Positions 13,486 to 33,957 of a DNA stretch of 34,445 bases are shown in pieces. Every line of letters starts with the position of its first letter. Position 1 is the first letter of the stretch. The stretch is from the IMG/VR virus record IMGVR_UViG_3300034685_000056, positions 1-34,445 of that record. One strand, written 5' to 3'. Origin of the DNA: a virus. The position numbers were made by a program, and so were the translations under genes. A model generated the notes under the pieces. The model made no database searches and was not told the origin of the DNA. It was given only the letters and a program-made list of their open reading frames with translations.

Positions 13486-14625
13486 GTGAAATACTTGAAA
13501 ACAATATTAAGAGCCTATAAATACAGAATATACCCTAATAAAGCACAAGCAGAACTAATCAATAAAACCATAGGTTGCTGTAGGTTTGTATATAATTACT
13601 ATTTAACAAAGAAAATAGAATTATATAAAAATGAGCAAAAATCAATAAATTATACTGCTTGTGCTAATGATTTAAAAAATCTTAAAAATCAATATGAATG
13701 GCTCAAAGAAGTTGATAGTATTTCCCTACAGCAAACATTGAAGGATTTAGATGCTGCTTATCAAAACTTTTTTAGACGTATAAAAAATGGTGAAAAAGAA
13801 GTAGGATTTCCGAAGTTTAAAACTAAAAAGAATCCTAAACAGTCATATAGAACACAAAATGTAAATAATAACATTGAAATCAAAGGTAATAAAATAAAGT
13901 TACCTAAACTTGGGTTAGTTAAATTTGCTAATAGTAGAAGTTTTGATGGTAAAATTACTTCTTGTACTATATCTAAAACTAATACAGATAAATATTTCCT
14001 ATCAGCATTAGTCGAAGAAGAAATACAAGAATTACCAAAGAAGAATAATGCTATAGGATTTGATTTGGGGGTTAAAGATTATTTAATTACATCAGATGGT
14101 GAAGTAGTTAATAATCCTAAAATACTAAAACAATATGAAAAGAAACTTATCAAACTTCAACGTCAATTATCAAGAAAAAAGATAGGCAGTAACAGATACA
14201 AGAAACATTCTAAGAAGATTGCTAAGTTACATGAAAAAATAAGAAATATAAGAACTGACTTTTTACAGAAATTATCTACACGTATAATTCAGGAAAACCA
14301 ACTGATTATTAGTGAAGATTTGAATGTAAAAGGTATGGTTCAGAATCATAGATTAGCAAAAGCAATAAATGATGTTTCTTGGTCTGAATTTTGTAGGATG
14401 ATTGAGTATAAAGCAAATTGGTATGGAAGGATATATTATAAGATAAATAGATTCTATGCTTCAAGTCAAACATGTAATGTTTGTGGGTATAAAAATGTAG
14501 ATATAAAAGACTTAAATGTAAGAAAATGGGTATGTCCTGAATGTGGTACTAAACATGATAGAGATAATAATGCTGCAATAAATATACTCAATCAAGGGTT
14601 AAAAGAATTAGGCTTAACAGCTTAA
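13486..14625 (+). CDS. tnpB: TnpB, RNA-guided endonuclease of IS200/IS605 family
   Basis: A 379-residue full-length TnpB. The RuvC nuclease residues are all present: D193 in GFDLGVKD, E277 in ISEDLNVKGM and D360 in HDRDNNAAINIL. They sit almost where the active-site residues of the characterised ISDra2 TnpB lie. The zinc finger between RuvC parts is intact (C330, C333, C350, C353). The N-terminus ILRAYKYRIYPNKAQ is typical. GTG 13486 is the longest start; TTG 13495 (giving MKTILRAYKYR) fits the AGGTG ribosome site equally well. Known members use an RNA from the transposon right end to cut the empty site, helping the element persist. It is driven by its own promoter(s). The encoded enzyme looks active; nothing is broken. 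Confidence 0.93.
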   Translation: MKYLKTILRAYKYRIYPNKAQAELINKTIGCCRFVYNYYLTKKIELYKNEQKSINYTACANDLKNLKNQYEWLKEVDSISLQQTLKDLDAAYQNFFRRIKNGEKEVGFPKFKTKKNPKQSYRTQNVNNNIEIKGNKIKLPKLGLVKFANSRSFDGKITSCTISKTNTDKYFLSALVEEEIQELPKKNNAIGFDLGVKDYLITSDGEVVNNPKILKQYEKKLIKLQRQLSRKKIGSNRYKKHSKKIAKLHEKIRNIRTDFLQKLSTRIIQENQLIISEDLNVKGMVQNHRLAKAINDVSWSEFCRMIEYKANWYGRIYYKINRFYASSQTCNVCGYKNVDIKDLNVRKWVCPECGTKHDRDNNAAINILNQGLKELGLTA

Positions 14626-14889: not shown

Positions 14890-15909
14890 TTAATCTATAA
14901 ATGCTTCATCAGCATCATCAGTATCTTCTCGTATCACATATATTTTAGTAGTATCAGACGATTCATGCCCAAGCAAACGCCTTGCGACCTCTAAGTCTTT
15001 ACCTGAATGTACTACAAGATTAGTTGCACGAGATTCTCTGAATAAATGAGGATGGACTCTACGCCCAACAATTTCTGTAAATAATCCACTACACCATTGA
15101 TTGAATGTATTAGGGGAGACTTGATTAATCTTACCGCCATATTTTGCAACAAACATATAAGGACAATCATCTTCACCACGTACTTCTAGCCATTTCTTAA
15201 GTACTTCCATTGCTTCTTCATTAAATTCTAATTTTCTAACTTTACCTACTTTTCCTCTGCCTTTGCACCTTATATCATGAGTTTTATATTTTTTTACTTC
15301 TACTTCAACTTCATTCCCTTTGGAATCCTTCATTTTAACTTTTTTTATTATAGGTTCGTAATTTACAACTTCTTTAAGCAACAATCTTGCTTCTTCTCGT
15401 CTACAACCAGTAATATAAGAAAACTTGAGATAAGCTAGTTTTTGCCATTCCTCACGTTTCTCTAATTCATCGCACAAATATCTATATTCGTTAGGAGTAA
15501 GTGGTTCTTTTTTATGTACTGCACCTGTTACAGGTACTTTAATAGATTTATTTATATAATTTCTAAAAGTAGGATATTCATCTTCGTAATATATCATGAT
15601 ATAGTTATTTAAGTTACTCACCGCAGATCTTTTAAGTTTAATTGTGGATTCCGACACGCCATTATTAGCTAACCAATTTTGGTATCTTAAATAGTCTCTA
15701 CTTTTTATATCAGTTACCTTTTTATCATTACAATACTGTTTTATCCAATATGCAAATATTCTTAAAGCAGATTTATATTGGATATAACTTTTAGGACTAA
15801 GATGCACAGAACTATCTAAATATTCATTTATTATATTGCGATTAAATTCATTACATTGTAACCACATTTCTTCTGTTACTTCTATAGATTTATCAGCAAT
15901 TTTACCCAT
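14890..15909 (-). CDS. Tyrosine recombinase (integrase family)
   Basis: A 339-residue protein with a core-binding N-terminal domain (about residues 25-125) and a complete catalytic domain. Visible active-site residues are R170 in TGCRREEARLL, H288 and R291 in HPHLFRESRAT, H315 in LLGHES and the nucleophile Y324 in KIYVIRED. A basic beta-hairpin (CKGRGKVGKVRKLEF) offers the catalytic lysine. Start ATG 15909 lies about 8 bases after AAGGTGGTGAG. It sits in the tail operon, between a neck-like gene and the tape measure region, on the same strand and probably co-transcribed late. That is unusual for a lysogeny integrase, normally near immunity genes. It could be the phage integrase, a cassette acquired with the nearby endonuclease, or a recombinase acting on tail genes; the last is speculation. 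Confidence 0.88.
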   Translation of the reverse strand: MGKIADKSIEVTEEMWLQCNEFNRNIINEYLDSSVHLSPKSYIQYKSALRIFAYWIKQYCNDKKVTDIKSRDYLRYQNWLANNGVSESTIKLKRSAVSNLNNYIMIYYEDEYPTFRNYINKSIKVPVTGAVHKKEPLTPNEYRYLCDELEKREEWQKLAYLKFSYITGCRREEARLLLKEVVNYEPIIKKVKMKDSKGNEVEVEVKKYKTHDIRCKGRGKVGKVRKLEFNEEAMEVLKKWLEVRGEDDCPYMFVAKYGGKINQVSPNTFNQWCSGLFTEIVGRRVHPHLFRESRATNLVVHSGKDLEVARRLLGHESSDTTKIYVIREDTDDADEAFID

Positions 15910-25253: not shown

Positions 25254-25287
25254 AAATAAATTCCTCCTTTAAATTTTATATTAATAA

Positions 25288-32101: not shown

Positions 32102-33031
32102 TCAAATACAAATTAATTTTGATTCTTCGTAGATAAGATTACCTTGTTCATCCTGAACTAAAAAAACAAAACCTTTATCTTGTGGTCTTACCATACTACC
32201 ATCAGAAGCATAAGACTGTTCTTCGCATAAACAACCACTTTCGTACATATATACACCACCATATCTGCTAAAACCTTGATGATGTGTATGACTCAAACAA
32301 AGCGTATCAAATTTCTCTCCTAATTGAAGAAAATATAAATATGCCTTCTCTGTTGTTGCAAGTATACCATTCCTAAACGCCTTCGGATGGGCAAAAAGTG
32401 TATTTCCTATTTTACACCACCAATTTTTCATATATTCAATATCTACCTTATCATCAAACACTTTGGTTAACGGTTCATAAAATGTTTTACTTTTTGTTTG
32501 ATGGTCGTGTTTCCAAAAACCCAAATCTATAATAAAATCAAGATTAGTTTCTGGCATAAGAGTAAGCAAATCTTCATGTACTTTTTCACTAAAATAATTA
32601 ATTAGCCTATAATTATGATTTCCTGCTATCAATTTAACTTGCTTTGGTTTTATATACTCAATAATATCTATAATCATCTGCCTAGCACCTATCATTTCAT
32701 CCACAAAAGGCACTCTGTATTTTTTCTTAAATTTACTAACTGATTGACAATCTTGTTCATCTCCACCAAACACAAGTACATCAACCTTACCAACATAATC
32801 TTTAAAAACTTCTTTTGGTAAATTAAATGGGTAATGGTTGTCTGAAATATGTAATATTCTTGTTTTATTTTTATATCCTATTTCTCCATTTTCTCTACGT
32901 ATTCTTTTAAACCAACTGCGTAAACATTCGCCTGAAGAAAATCCATATTGTTTTGCAAGCTCTTCCCAAGATAAATCAATCTCTTTATTGTGCTTTTTAT
33001 AGCATATATTCAATAATTCCTTATTATTCAA
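32102..33031 (-). CDS. Calcineurin-like metallophosphoesterase with N-terminal HTH
   Basis: A 309-residue protein. Start TTG 33031 is 8 bases after a strong GGGGAGG; the nearby ATG 33035 opens only a four-codon frame. Residues 1-50 (ELAKQYGFSSGECLRSWFKRIRRE) look like a helix-turn-helix. The phosphoesterase motifs follow in order: D64/H66 in ISDNHYP, D91 in GGDEQD, GNHN at 137-140, H215 in FAHPKAF and SHTHH at 248-251. These bind two metals in the family. Such proteins, with an HTH, are found next to terminase genes in some phages; their substrate is not known. It is the first gene after the strong terminator, so it may head the late operon. Confidence 0.85.
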   Translation of the reverse strand: MNNKELLNICYKKHNKEIDLSWEELAKQYGFSSGECLRSWFKRIRRENGEIGYKNKTRILHISDNHYPFNLPKEVFKDYVGKVDVLVFGGDEQDCQSVSKFKKKYRVPFVDEMIGARQMIIDIIEYIKPKQVKLIAGNHNYRLINYFSEKVHEDLLTLMPETNLDFIIDLGFWKHDHQTKSKTFYEPLTKVFDDKVDIEYMKNWWCKIGNTLFAHPKAFRNGILATTEKAYLYFLQLGEKFDTLCLSHTHHQGFSRYGGVYMYESGCLCEEQSYASDGSMVRPQDKGFVFLVQDEQGNLIYEESKLICI

Positions 33032-33066
33032 ACATTCAACCTCCCCAAACTTTTTTAATAATAAAA

Positions 33067-33093
33067 AAGTAGGGGAGAGAAACGCCCCTACTT
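33067..33093 (-). terminator. Strong intrinsic terminator ending the ncRNA region
   Basis: AAGTAGGGG (33067-33075) pairs with CCCCTACTT (33085-33093), 9 bp, 9-base loop. On the minus strand the right arm runs into TTTTTTATTATT. A second, competing AT stem (33049-33057 with 33062-33070) overlaps its distal arm, so two states are possible. It lies about 20 bases before the ribosome site of the phosphoesterase gene. Confidence 0.8.
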
Positions 33094-33520
33094 ATAATAA
33101 ATATTATATTAATATTTTACAATCCGCAAACCTCATGCAGTTATTGGATTGATGAATAGGGAATCAATCCTAGACTCCCTGTTTTTTGAAAATCATATTA
33201 TTCGCTTACTCCAGAAGCGAACATTTTTACAACAAAAACCGATTCTCTAAATCATTGGTACATCCGCAAAAAACCAATGCAAACTTGAATCGGATTGAGC
33301 AGTATAGTTGCAGTTACTACACTACTAGTTTTACAATAGCTTCAGCTCTCTAATAATACCGAAGCACTAATTGCTTATGATAAAATAAAATATTGTATTA
33401 ATGATGCCTTAATGGCGGTTCTGATAAGAACATTGTTGTGACTTTGTGTTGTATAGCACACAACACGACATCAGTCGTATTCCTTTGTTATCATACCATA
33501 GACTTGTACCCCCATGAAGC

Positions 33521-33618
33521 AAGGAAGGAACACACACTTGTTATTGTTTTTGAAAATTGCCCATTTAAGGGTTCTTTGAAATCACAAGGGAAGGAATGCA
33601 CACTGATTATTGTTTTTG
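33521..33618 (-). repeat. Imperfect direct repeat of about 33 bases within the ncRNA region
   Basis: Copies lie at 33521-33552 and 33586-33618. Both share an AAGG(G)AAGGAA start, a CACAC core and a TTATTGTTTTTG end. The second copy's GGGAAGGA pairs with TCCTTCCC (33619-33626). The repeated motif may form two similar sub-structures in the RNA. Confidence 0.75.
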
Positions 33619-33928
33619 TCCTTCCCAAATTTGAATATTATTATTCATTAGGTAGGTTGACAATCCTACATCCCTTAAAGACCATTTCTGGTGTGACGGC
33701 TGCCTGTTCCGTCCTCAGAATGAATAATAATTAATATCGTGCTTATATTAAGCAATTGCTTTGTCGTTTCCATATTTGAAAATAATAATACAACAATATC
33801 TTTTGCCAGTTGCCCAACAAAAGTACATTCCATGTGAACAAAATGAAAATTTTATTCAAACTTTTCAGTTTGATTTGTAGTATCTGTACTTTAGTACGCT
33901 TAACTACAGGCATTAAATTAAAACCTTT

Positions 33929-33957
33929 TATATATTAATATTTATTTCTTCTCATAA
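33929..33957 (-). promoter_or_regulatory. Possible promoter for the ncRNA
   Basis: On the minus strand TTATGA (33957-33952) and TATATA (33934-33929) are separated by 17 bases, predicting a start near 33922. The -35 matches consensus in only half its positions, and the promoter lies inside the end of the small Cys-rich gene. Confidence 0.3.

Follow-up and report, generated by a model that had tools for sequence, protein, structure and literature searches.

The viral DNA analysed here (the window; IMG/VR record IMGVR_UViG_3300034685_000056, positions 1 to 34,445, 34,445 nt) carries at 33061-33941, on the minus strand, an array of small, independently folding and exchangeable RNA modules, and not a monolithic RNA with a conserved core. 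One of these modules is a skipping-rope (SR) RNA (Rfam RF02924), a family that elsewhere is associated with the genes of solo PBECR3 nucleases. The explanation that we consider best overall, and that seems on balance somewhat probable, is a modular phage RNA array whose SR module is a phage-borne antidote to PBECR3. Array coordinates are those of the window, position 1 being its first letter; relatives and partner loci are labelled L0xx to L3xx.

Module turnover between related phages

The array is flanked by a small Cys-rich open reading frame (ORF) and a metallophosphoesterase gene, and the locus lies upstream of terminase and portal genes. The metallophosphoesterase is encoded at eleven IMG/VR loci, and no homologues of it were found in bacterial genomes. 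Arrays were compared among relatives whose metallophosphoesterase was 90-99% identical and for which enough sequence was available. The modules and adjoining features are listed in 5' to 3' order of the minus strand.

33925-33945 (-): AT-rich box (ATATTAATATATAAAA), a possible phage promoter at the array 5' end; similar boxes elsewhere
33856-33927 (-): M1, three hairpins, 72 nt; absent from the near-identical phage L017/L082; in L083, 0 of 22 pairs broken
33778-33855 (-): M2, long GCAA-capped hairpin (33829-33795); nearly invariant in L083 and L085-L087
33637-33731 (-): SR RNA (Rfam match 33644-33724), perfect 13-bp closing stem; an orphan, no PBECR gene found nearby
33448-33636 (-): M3, hairpins, two related segments of ~30 nt (AACAATAAnnAGTGTGnnTTCCTTCC); only in the window and L082
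33399-33447 (-): M5, two small hairpins; one relative with a 2-nt loop deletion
33329-33399 (-): M6, long GUGCUUCGG hairpin; 4 one-sided changes in relatives
33235-33331 (-): M7 and M8, two long hairpins; all pairs intact in relatives
33149-33231 (-): M9 and M10, hairpins; 2 pairs of each module doubly changed in relatives
33093-33153 (-): ME, terminal hairpin; the sole module in every relative that has the array
33063-33093 (-): intrinsic terminator hairpin and U-run; conserved in relatives
32102-33031 (-): metallophosphoesterase gene, flanking; query for finding relatives

In the relatives the array stood at the same position, with modules missing or swapped. The near-identical phage L082 lacked the 72-nt M1 alone, its other 806 nt being intact. 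M2 was joined directly to M5 in L083, and the SR RNA and M3 are therefore absent there, while the L085 array measured only about 220 nt. A different closed element of ~75 nt interrupted M2 in L092, and a related closed element and a small ORF took the place of M2 in L090. Only the last ~60 nt (ME) were common to all relatives with the array, and an HSP20-like gene was found between ME and the terminator in relatives. At 71% identity, L091 had no array, and its intergenic stretch was not unusually folded (z -1.46). Phage L016 carried a 680-nt gene-free array that also starts with an SR RNA (z -8.3). Pattern scans for copies of M2 and ME elsewhere returned the same phage lineage and one unrelated coding match only, and the extra pattern matches for M5 all fell within one coding-gene family.

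The first-pass annotation had read the stretch as one RNA of about 860 nt, possibly of the ROOL or GOLLD type. A large ornate RNA of this style, in which peripheral helices vary around a conserved core, would account for the strong overall folding and the late phage region, and GOLLD, too, is conserved towards its 3' end and varies in its 5' part (PMC12286853). However, whole modules come and go among phages whose flanking proteins are at least 90% identical, arrays shrink to ~220 nt, and a set in which modules are missing or swapped and only ~60 nt are shared by all is not what a monolithic RNA built around a conserved core would give. The common part of GOLLD is larger, its universally conserved 3' region being about 400 nt in the solved structure (PMC12286853). 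In the Rfam search, run with permissive filters, ROOL, GOLLD, OLE and all other large RNAs gave no match at E≤10. The array resembles ROOL and GOLLD in being a large non-coding RNA region of a phage (these two are often near tRNA genes) but differs in having exchangeable modules and neither a covariance-model match nor a conserved large core. A single large RNA is very improbable.

The closed elements of L090 and L092 (~77 nt; L090:1092-1168 and L092:5179-5258) are related, lie at different places in their arrays and have an AAAACCA/UGGUUUU-type closing stem with the pattern GGAGU...GUCCUC..CAC..AAUA...GUUGG.AUAG. They matched nothing in Rfam, a pattern search returned no viral homologue, and none was found outside the lineage. 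The idea that they are divergent SR RNAs was rejected on testing. In L088 (2139-3170), the end of an IS200/IS605-like element adjoins the HSP20-like gene and breaks the array region.

Folding and coding potential of the array

The minus strand of 33061-33941 folded at -236.2 kcal/mol (z -7.45), better than 20 of 20 dinucleotide shuffles, and the plus strand at -204.6 kcal/mol (z -6.94), so that folding favours the minus strand, the difference in z being small. Of the structural features noticed in the first pass, the two GAAA loops, the 13-bp stem and the terminator were recovered. Span-limited folding returned 18 local hairpin domains, and the two GAAA loops of the minus strand are ACCA-GAAA-UGGU, in the SR RNA, and ACU-GAAA-AGU, in M1. 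The SR RNA is closed by the perfect 13-bp stem (AUUAUUAUUCAUU/AAUGAAUAAUAAU), and the terminator at the 3' end (about 33063-33093) consists of the hairpin GUAGGGGCGUUUCUCUCCCCUAC and a U-run.

Of the 19 distinct pair-states that had changed across relatives, 16 still pair, whereas single random changes would leave about 25% paired; substitutions per site were 0.066 in stems and 0.158 outside them (2.4-fold fewer in stems), both comparisons being biased upward by a structure derived from the window. The reading of the stretch as structured non-coding RNA, encoded by the minus strand in a phage late region, is supported.

The stretch also proved gene-free, as the first reading had it: the largest ORF on either strand had at most 98 aa, and no AGGAGG-type site preceded the ATGs of the array. 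Protein coding was rejected, as there were small ORFs only and a possible M2 frame (MECTFVGQLAKDI...) had no ribosome site and a variable C-terminus. A protein frame across relatives is also disfavoured because any frame would be shifted by the 2-nt deletion that one relative has in an M5 hairpin loop. ARAGORN found no tRNA genes in the window or the relatives, and degenerate tRNAs were rejected as array content on the same result.

Identity of the skipping-rope RNA

The SR RNA was the single Rfam match in the whole window, at 63.1 bits (gathering score 36.7, E 4.6e-13) over model positions 1-80 of 80, and a model to which its own sequence contributed gave 84.7 bits. The suggestion of a new RNA class thus fails for the 'cloverleaf' closed by the 13-bp stem, which is RF02924. 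The remaining modules match nothing in Rfam. Aligned with 47 other SR RNAs, the window copy has the closing stem, the first hairpin (GGNCGGAA..GGCAGCC) and the conserved GATG segment, and all invariant columns are kept. It belongs to the P2b subtype, which has an extra hairpin. Double changes occurred at 11 of the 15 consensus pairs of the SR model built from 48 sequences.

A pattern search of IMG/VR and of genomes from Firmicutes, Synergistes and other groups gave 128 distinct SR RNAs. A TTGACA/TATAAT promoter (at least 10 of 12 matches within 75 nt upstream) was present for 61% of 127 SR RNAs, versus 4.8% of shuffles, and the examples read had a terminator-like hairpin 3' of the SR RNA. Compared with a typical RF02924 member, the window copy has the same sequence and structure over the full length, invariant positions included, but differs in being a module of a phage array, in having neither a PBECR gene nor a sigma70 promoter of its own, and in its P2b form. 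In the literature covered, to which the original description of 2017 did not belong, SR is only named as a small RNA family without function, with no link to PBECR.

The high turnover between close relatives could also mean that the window SR RNA and its array are transient remnants without function. The retention of all invariant family positions and of a perfect closing stem, and the preservation of hairpins against substitution, argue against this reading, which we consider very unlikely.

Association of SR RNAs with solo PBECR3 nucleases

PBECR3 proteins are predicted BECR-fold RNases that have been described in phages (PMC5512222). Starting from the SR RNAs, the preceding ORF was mostly on the same strand at a median distance of 54 nt, and 39 of 62 upstream proteins matched Pfam PBECR3. 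With an iterated profile, a PBECR-like ORF was found upstream on the same strand for 57 of 124 SR RNAs and in convergent orientation for 8 more; a separate count put the median distance at 47 nt. Downstream neighbours were mixed, and the idea that SR marks one specific gene downstream was rejected.

The association was also seen from the protein side. Among 392 genomes of one order, an SR RNA lay just 3' of the nuclease at 23 of 30 PBECR3 loci, and only 31 of the 392 genomes had any SR RNA. All 11 strong solo PBECR3 genes of a second class had an SR RNA beside them, and none was found with the PBECR3 domains that form part of longer proteins (238 to 2725 aa). Pooled, SR RNAs were beside 34 of 41 solo PBECR3 genes versus 0 of 7 PBECR3 domains in longer proteins (p = 4.7e-5). 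The sets collected from the two sides share some genomes, which leaves the protein-first counts unaffected. The PBECR3 match at L320/L340 was weak (13.8 bits, E 0.066). A small solo PBECR3 clade (L266, L270, L273 and L274) was without SR; three of its members precede genes of one kind.

On the B. subtilis plasmid pTA1060, an SR RNA is convergent with a gene annotated by NCBI as 'PBECR2 nuclease fold', 26 nt away. The PF18812 (PBECR3) profile matched the pTA1060 protein, WP_010890193, at 80 bits, that of L199 at 57.4 and that of L149 at 75.3 (cut-off 30). A search from the pTA1060 protein led to SR-PBECR pairs on Planococcus and Fusobacterium plasmids and to the 'spbA' gene of a Streptococcus prophage.

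SR and PBECR distances correlated (Mantel r = 0.69, reached by 0 of 2000 permutations), and P2b SR RNAs occurred with the WKDR clade of PBECR (motif W-x-[DN]-R) in 13 of 14 cases versus 0 of 87. A confident AlphaFold model of PBECR (pLDDT 92.4) was closest to the colicin D tRNase and other RNase toxins, with Z up to 6.8, which is below the clear level, and suggests an RNase-toxin-like fold for PBECR3. A Foldseek search of the PDB with the PBECR3 model gave no significant match, and a PDB sequence search with PBECR3 gave none.

From these sequence patterns we infer that PBECR3 is toxic and that SR inhibits it. The SR-PBECR3 loci appear to follow the logic of a type III toxin/RNA-antitoxin module, with another family of nuclease and another order of genes. 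ToxIN and its phage-borne pseudo-ToxI (PMC3475682) offer a parallel: mobile elements carry an RNase gene together with an RNA, and phages carry that RNA as orphan copies. The nuclease of the SR loci differs, being PBECR3 with its predicted BECR fold, and the RNA is downstream or convergent, with its own promoter and usually in one copy, whereas ToxIN has an upstream repeat array. The tandem repeats upstream of the toxin, with a shared promoter, that mark type III antitoxins are thus not seen at SR-PBECR3 loci. Two or three copies were seen at two loci: L278 has two SR RNAs in tandem about 15 nt apart, and in L263 two SR RNAs (1891-1996 and 2703-2804) surround a single PBECR3 gene on a contig that holds a third. 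A further likeness is AbiF, a phage-borne toxin of Firmicutes that is neutralised by a structured RNA, the antitoxin RCd22 (RF03085; PMC12373285), but both the protein (AbiF is an Abi_2 protein) and the RNA are different, and RCd22 lies upstream of the toxin gene.

SR might instead assist or regulate PBECR, by control of its mRNA for example, without being an antitoxin, and the phage orphans might serve otherwise, for instance in a tRNA-linked role. In most pairs the two are indeed on one strand, the SR RNA close behind the 3' end of the nuclease ORF, and some orphans are in or near tRNA genes. A part in the nuclease 3'-UTR is disfavoured because convergent pairs and own promoters occur, and the orphans keep the invariant residues; we judge this role rather improbable. 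The same promoters bear on the possibility that the array is a cis-acting leader, its modules regulating the downstream late genes (HSP20-like or metallophosphoesterase) through stability, termination or antitermination. The array does directly precede these genes and shares their strand, with the terminator between. However, the downstream gene differs (the HSP20-like gene is present or absent) while modules vary freely, and a second promoter-like box precedes HSP20. Elsewhere, moreover, the SR RNA comes with a promoter of its own and can be oriented towards its neighbour, and therefore works as a separate RNA. A leader function is fairly unlikely.

Orphan SR RNAs in phages

SR RNAs without PBECR were found in the window lineage, in L016, in 17 records of Lactococcus 949-type phages and in the Brevibacillus phages Jenst and SecTim467. 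Those of the Lactococcus and Brevibacillus phages are in or near the stable-RNA (tRNA) clusters of these large phages; the window and its relatives differ in that no tRNA gene was found in them. In Lactococcus phage 949 (L123, 44900-45960), tRNA-like segments with GGTTCGATTCC arms, unannotated as tRNAs, surround the SR RNA. On a 69-kb phage contig (L066:4738-5240), an SR RNA is followed 9 nt later by a tRNA-Gln and then by four repeats with (C)UUCCUUCU in hairpins, possibly another RNA array.

No PBECR3 was found in the window, in the records of its relatives or in the complete Lactococcus phages LW81 and 949 (the control genomes were also without the family); the same protein search gave matches in 44 genomes elsewhere. 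Two PBECR protein queries had 0 matches in 50,697 phage records, and the phage-record matches of a third were Streptococcus prophages only. A strong promoter of their own was present in 15% of 20 viral orphans versus 83% of 70 non-orphan SR RNAs, and the window copy scored 8/12, like shuffled sequence. Another single toxin family as the partner of orphan SR RNAs was rejected, the neighbours being mixed (two Abi_2 and one YafQ among 77 proteins).

Proposed role of the array

By analogy, the orphan SR RNA may protect its phage against a PBECR nuclease. The pseudo-ToxI RNA of phage PhiTE neutralises ToxIN (PMC3475682), and the window SR RNA may be an RNA antidote of this kind. On the simplest reading, it is virulent or competing phages that carry the RNA partner alone. 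The array would consist of some ten small RNA modules that fold individually and are probably carried on one late phage transcript, and modules would be gained and lost by recombination between related phages. In prophages and on plasmids, SR would be an RNA antitoxin that binds and blocks the adjoining solo PBECR3 RNase. The phage orphan, having no nuclease and no promoter of its own, would be transcribed under phage control and would act as an antidote or decoy, neutralising the PBECR nucleases of resident prophages or plasmids during infection. The WKDR clade would be the target of the window copy, because this is of the P2b subtype.

The other modules might, as a guess, act likewise against other defences. 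The whole array could then be an exchangeable antidote store, in which modules partner, or mimic the RNA partners of, different RNA-controlled toxins and are swapped as hosts change toxins; we put this extension forward tentatively, as possible and still doubtful.

Several observations weigh against the antidote explanation. No PBECR-like neighbour was found for 59 of the 124 SR RNAs, and not all of these are in phage arrays. Co-segregation of SR and PBECR could reflect joint inheritance rather than contact. The window is a 34-kb fragment, and a PBECR gene may lie elsewhere in the genome. The remaining modules match no known RNA, and a two-sequence model of the L090/L092 element had 0 matches in the 392 genomes, in a search run without a positive control.

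The link to PBECR3 gives the SR RNA a partner and a testable role. It points to a widespread, apparently undescribed RNase/RNA module resembling a toxin-antitoxin system in prophages and plasmids of Firmicutes, Fusobacteria and Synergistes, which reaches the small B. subtilis plasmid pTA1060. RNA antidotes would be a concrete reason for structured RNAs in the tRNA-like islands of phages, a long-standing question about phage non-coding RNAs. If the antidote store is real, SR against PBECR3 would be its first decoded entry.

Other features of the window and its relatives

Boxes of the ATTAATATAAAA type, similar to the AT-rich box at the array 5' end, also precede minus-strand genes at 25286, 18016 and 444, and the array in relatives. 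A recurrent TATTAATATAAAATTT-like box was observed upstream of minus-strand genes of the window at 33939, 33114, 25286, 18016 and 444, and is possibly the late promoter of the phage lineage.

A HEARO RNA, of the HNH endonuclease-associated RNA family, was seen at L085:2395-2604, in a close relative of the window phage. The window has a TnpB-like IS605 OrfB gene at 13486-14625 on the plus strand, opposite to most genes, and a tyrosine integrase gene at 14890-15909 on the minus strand. The integrase, late genes and RNA array in one genome suggest a temperate phage or plasmid-phage.
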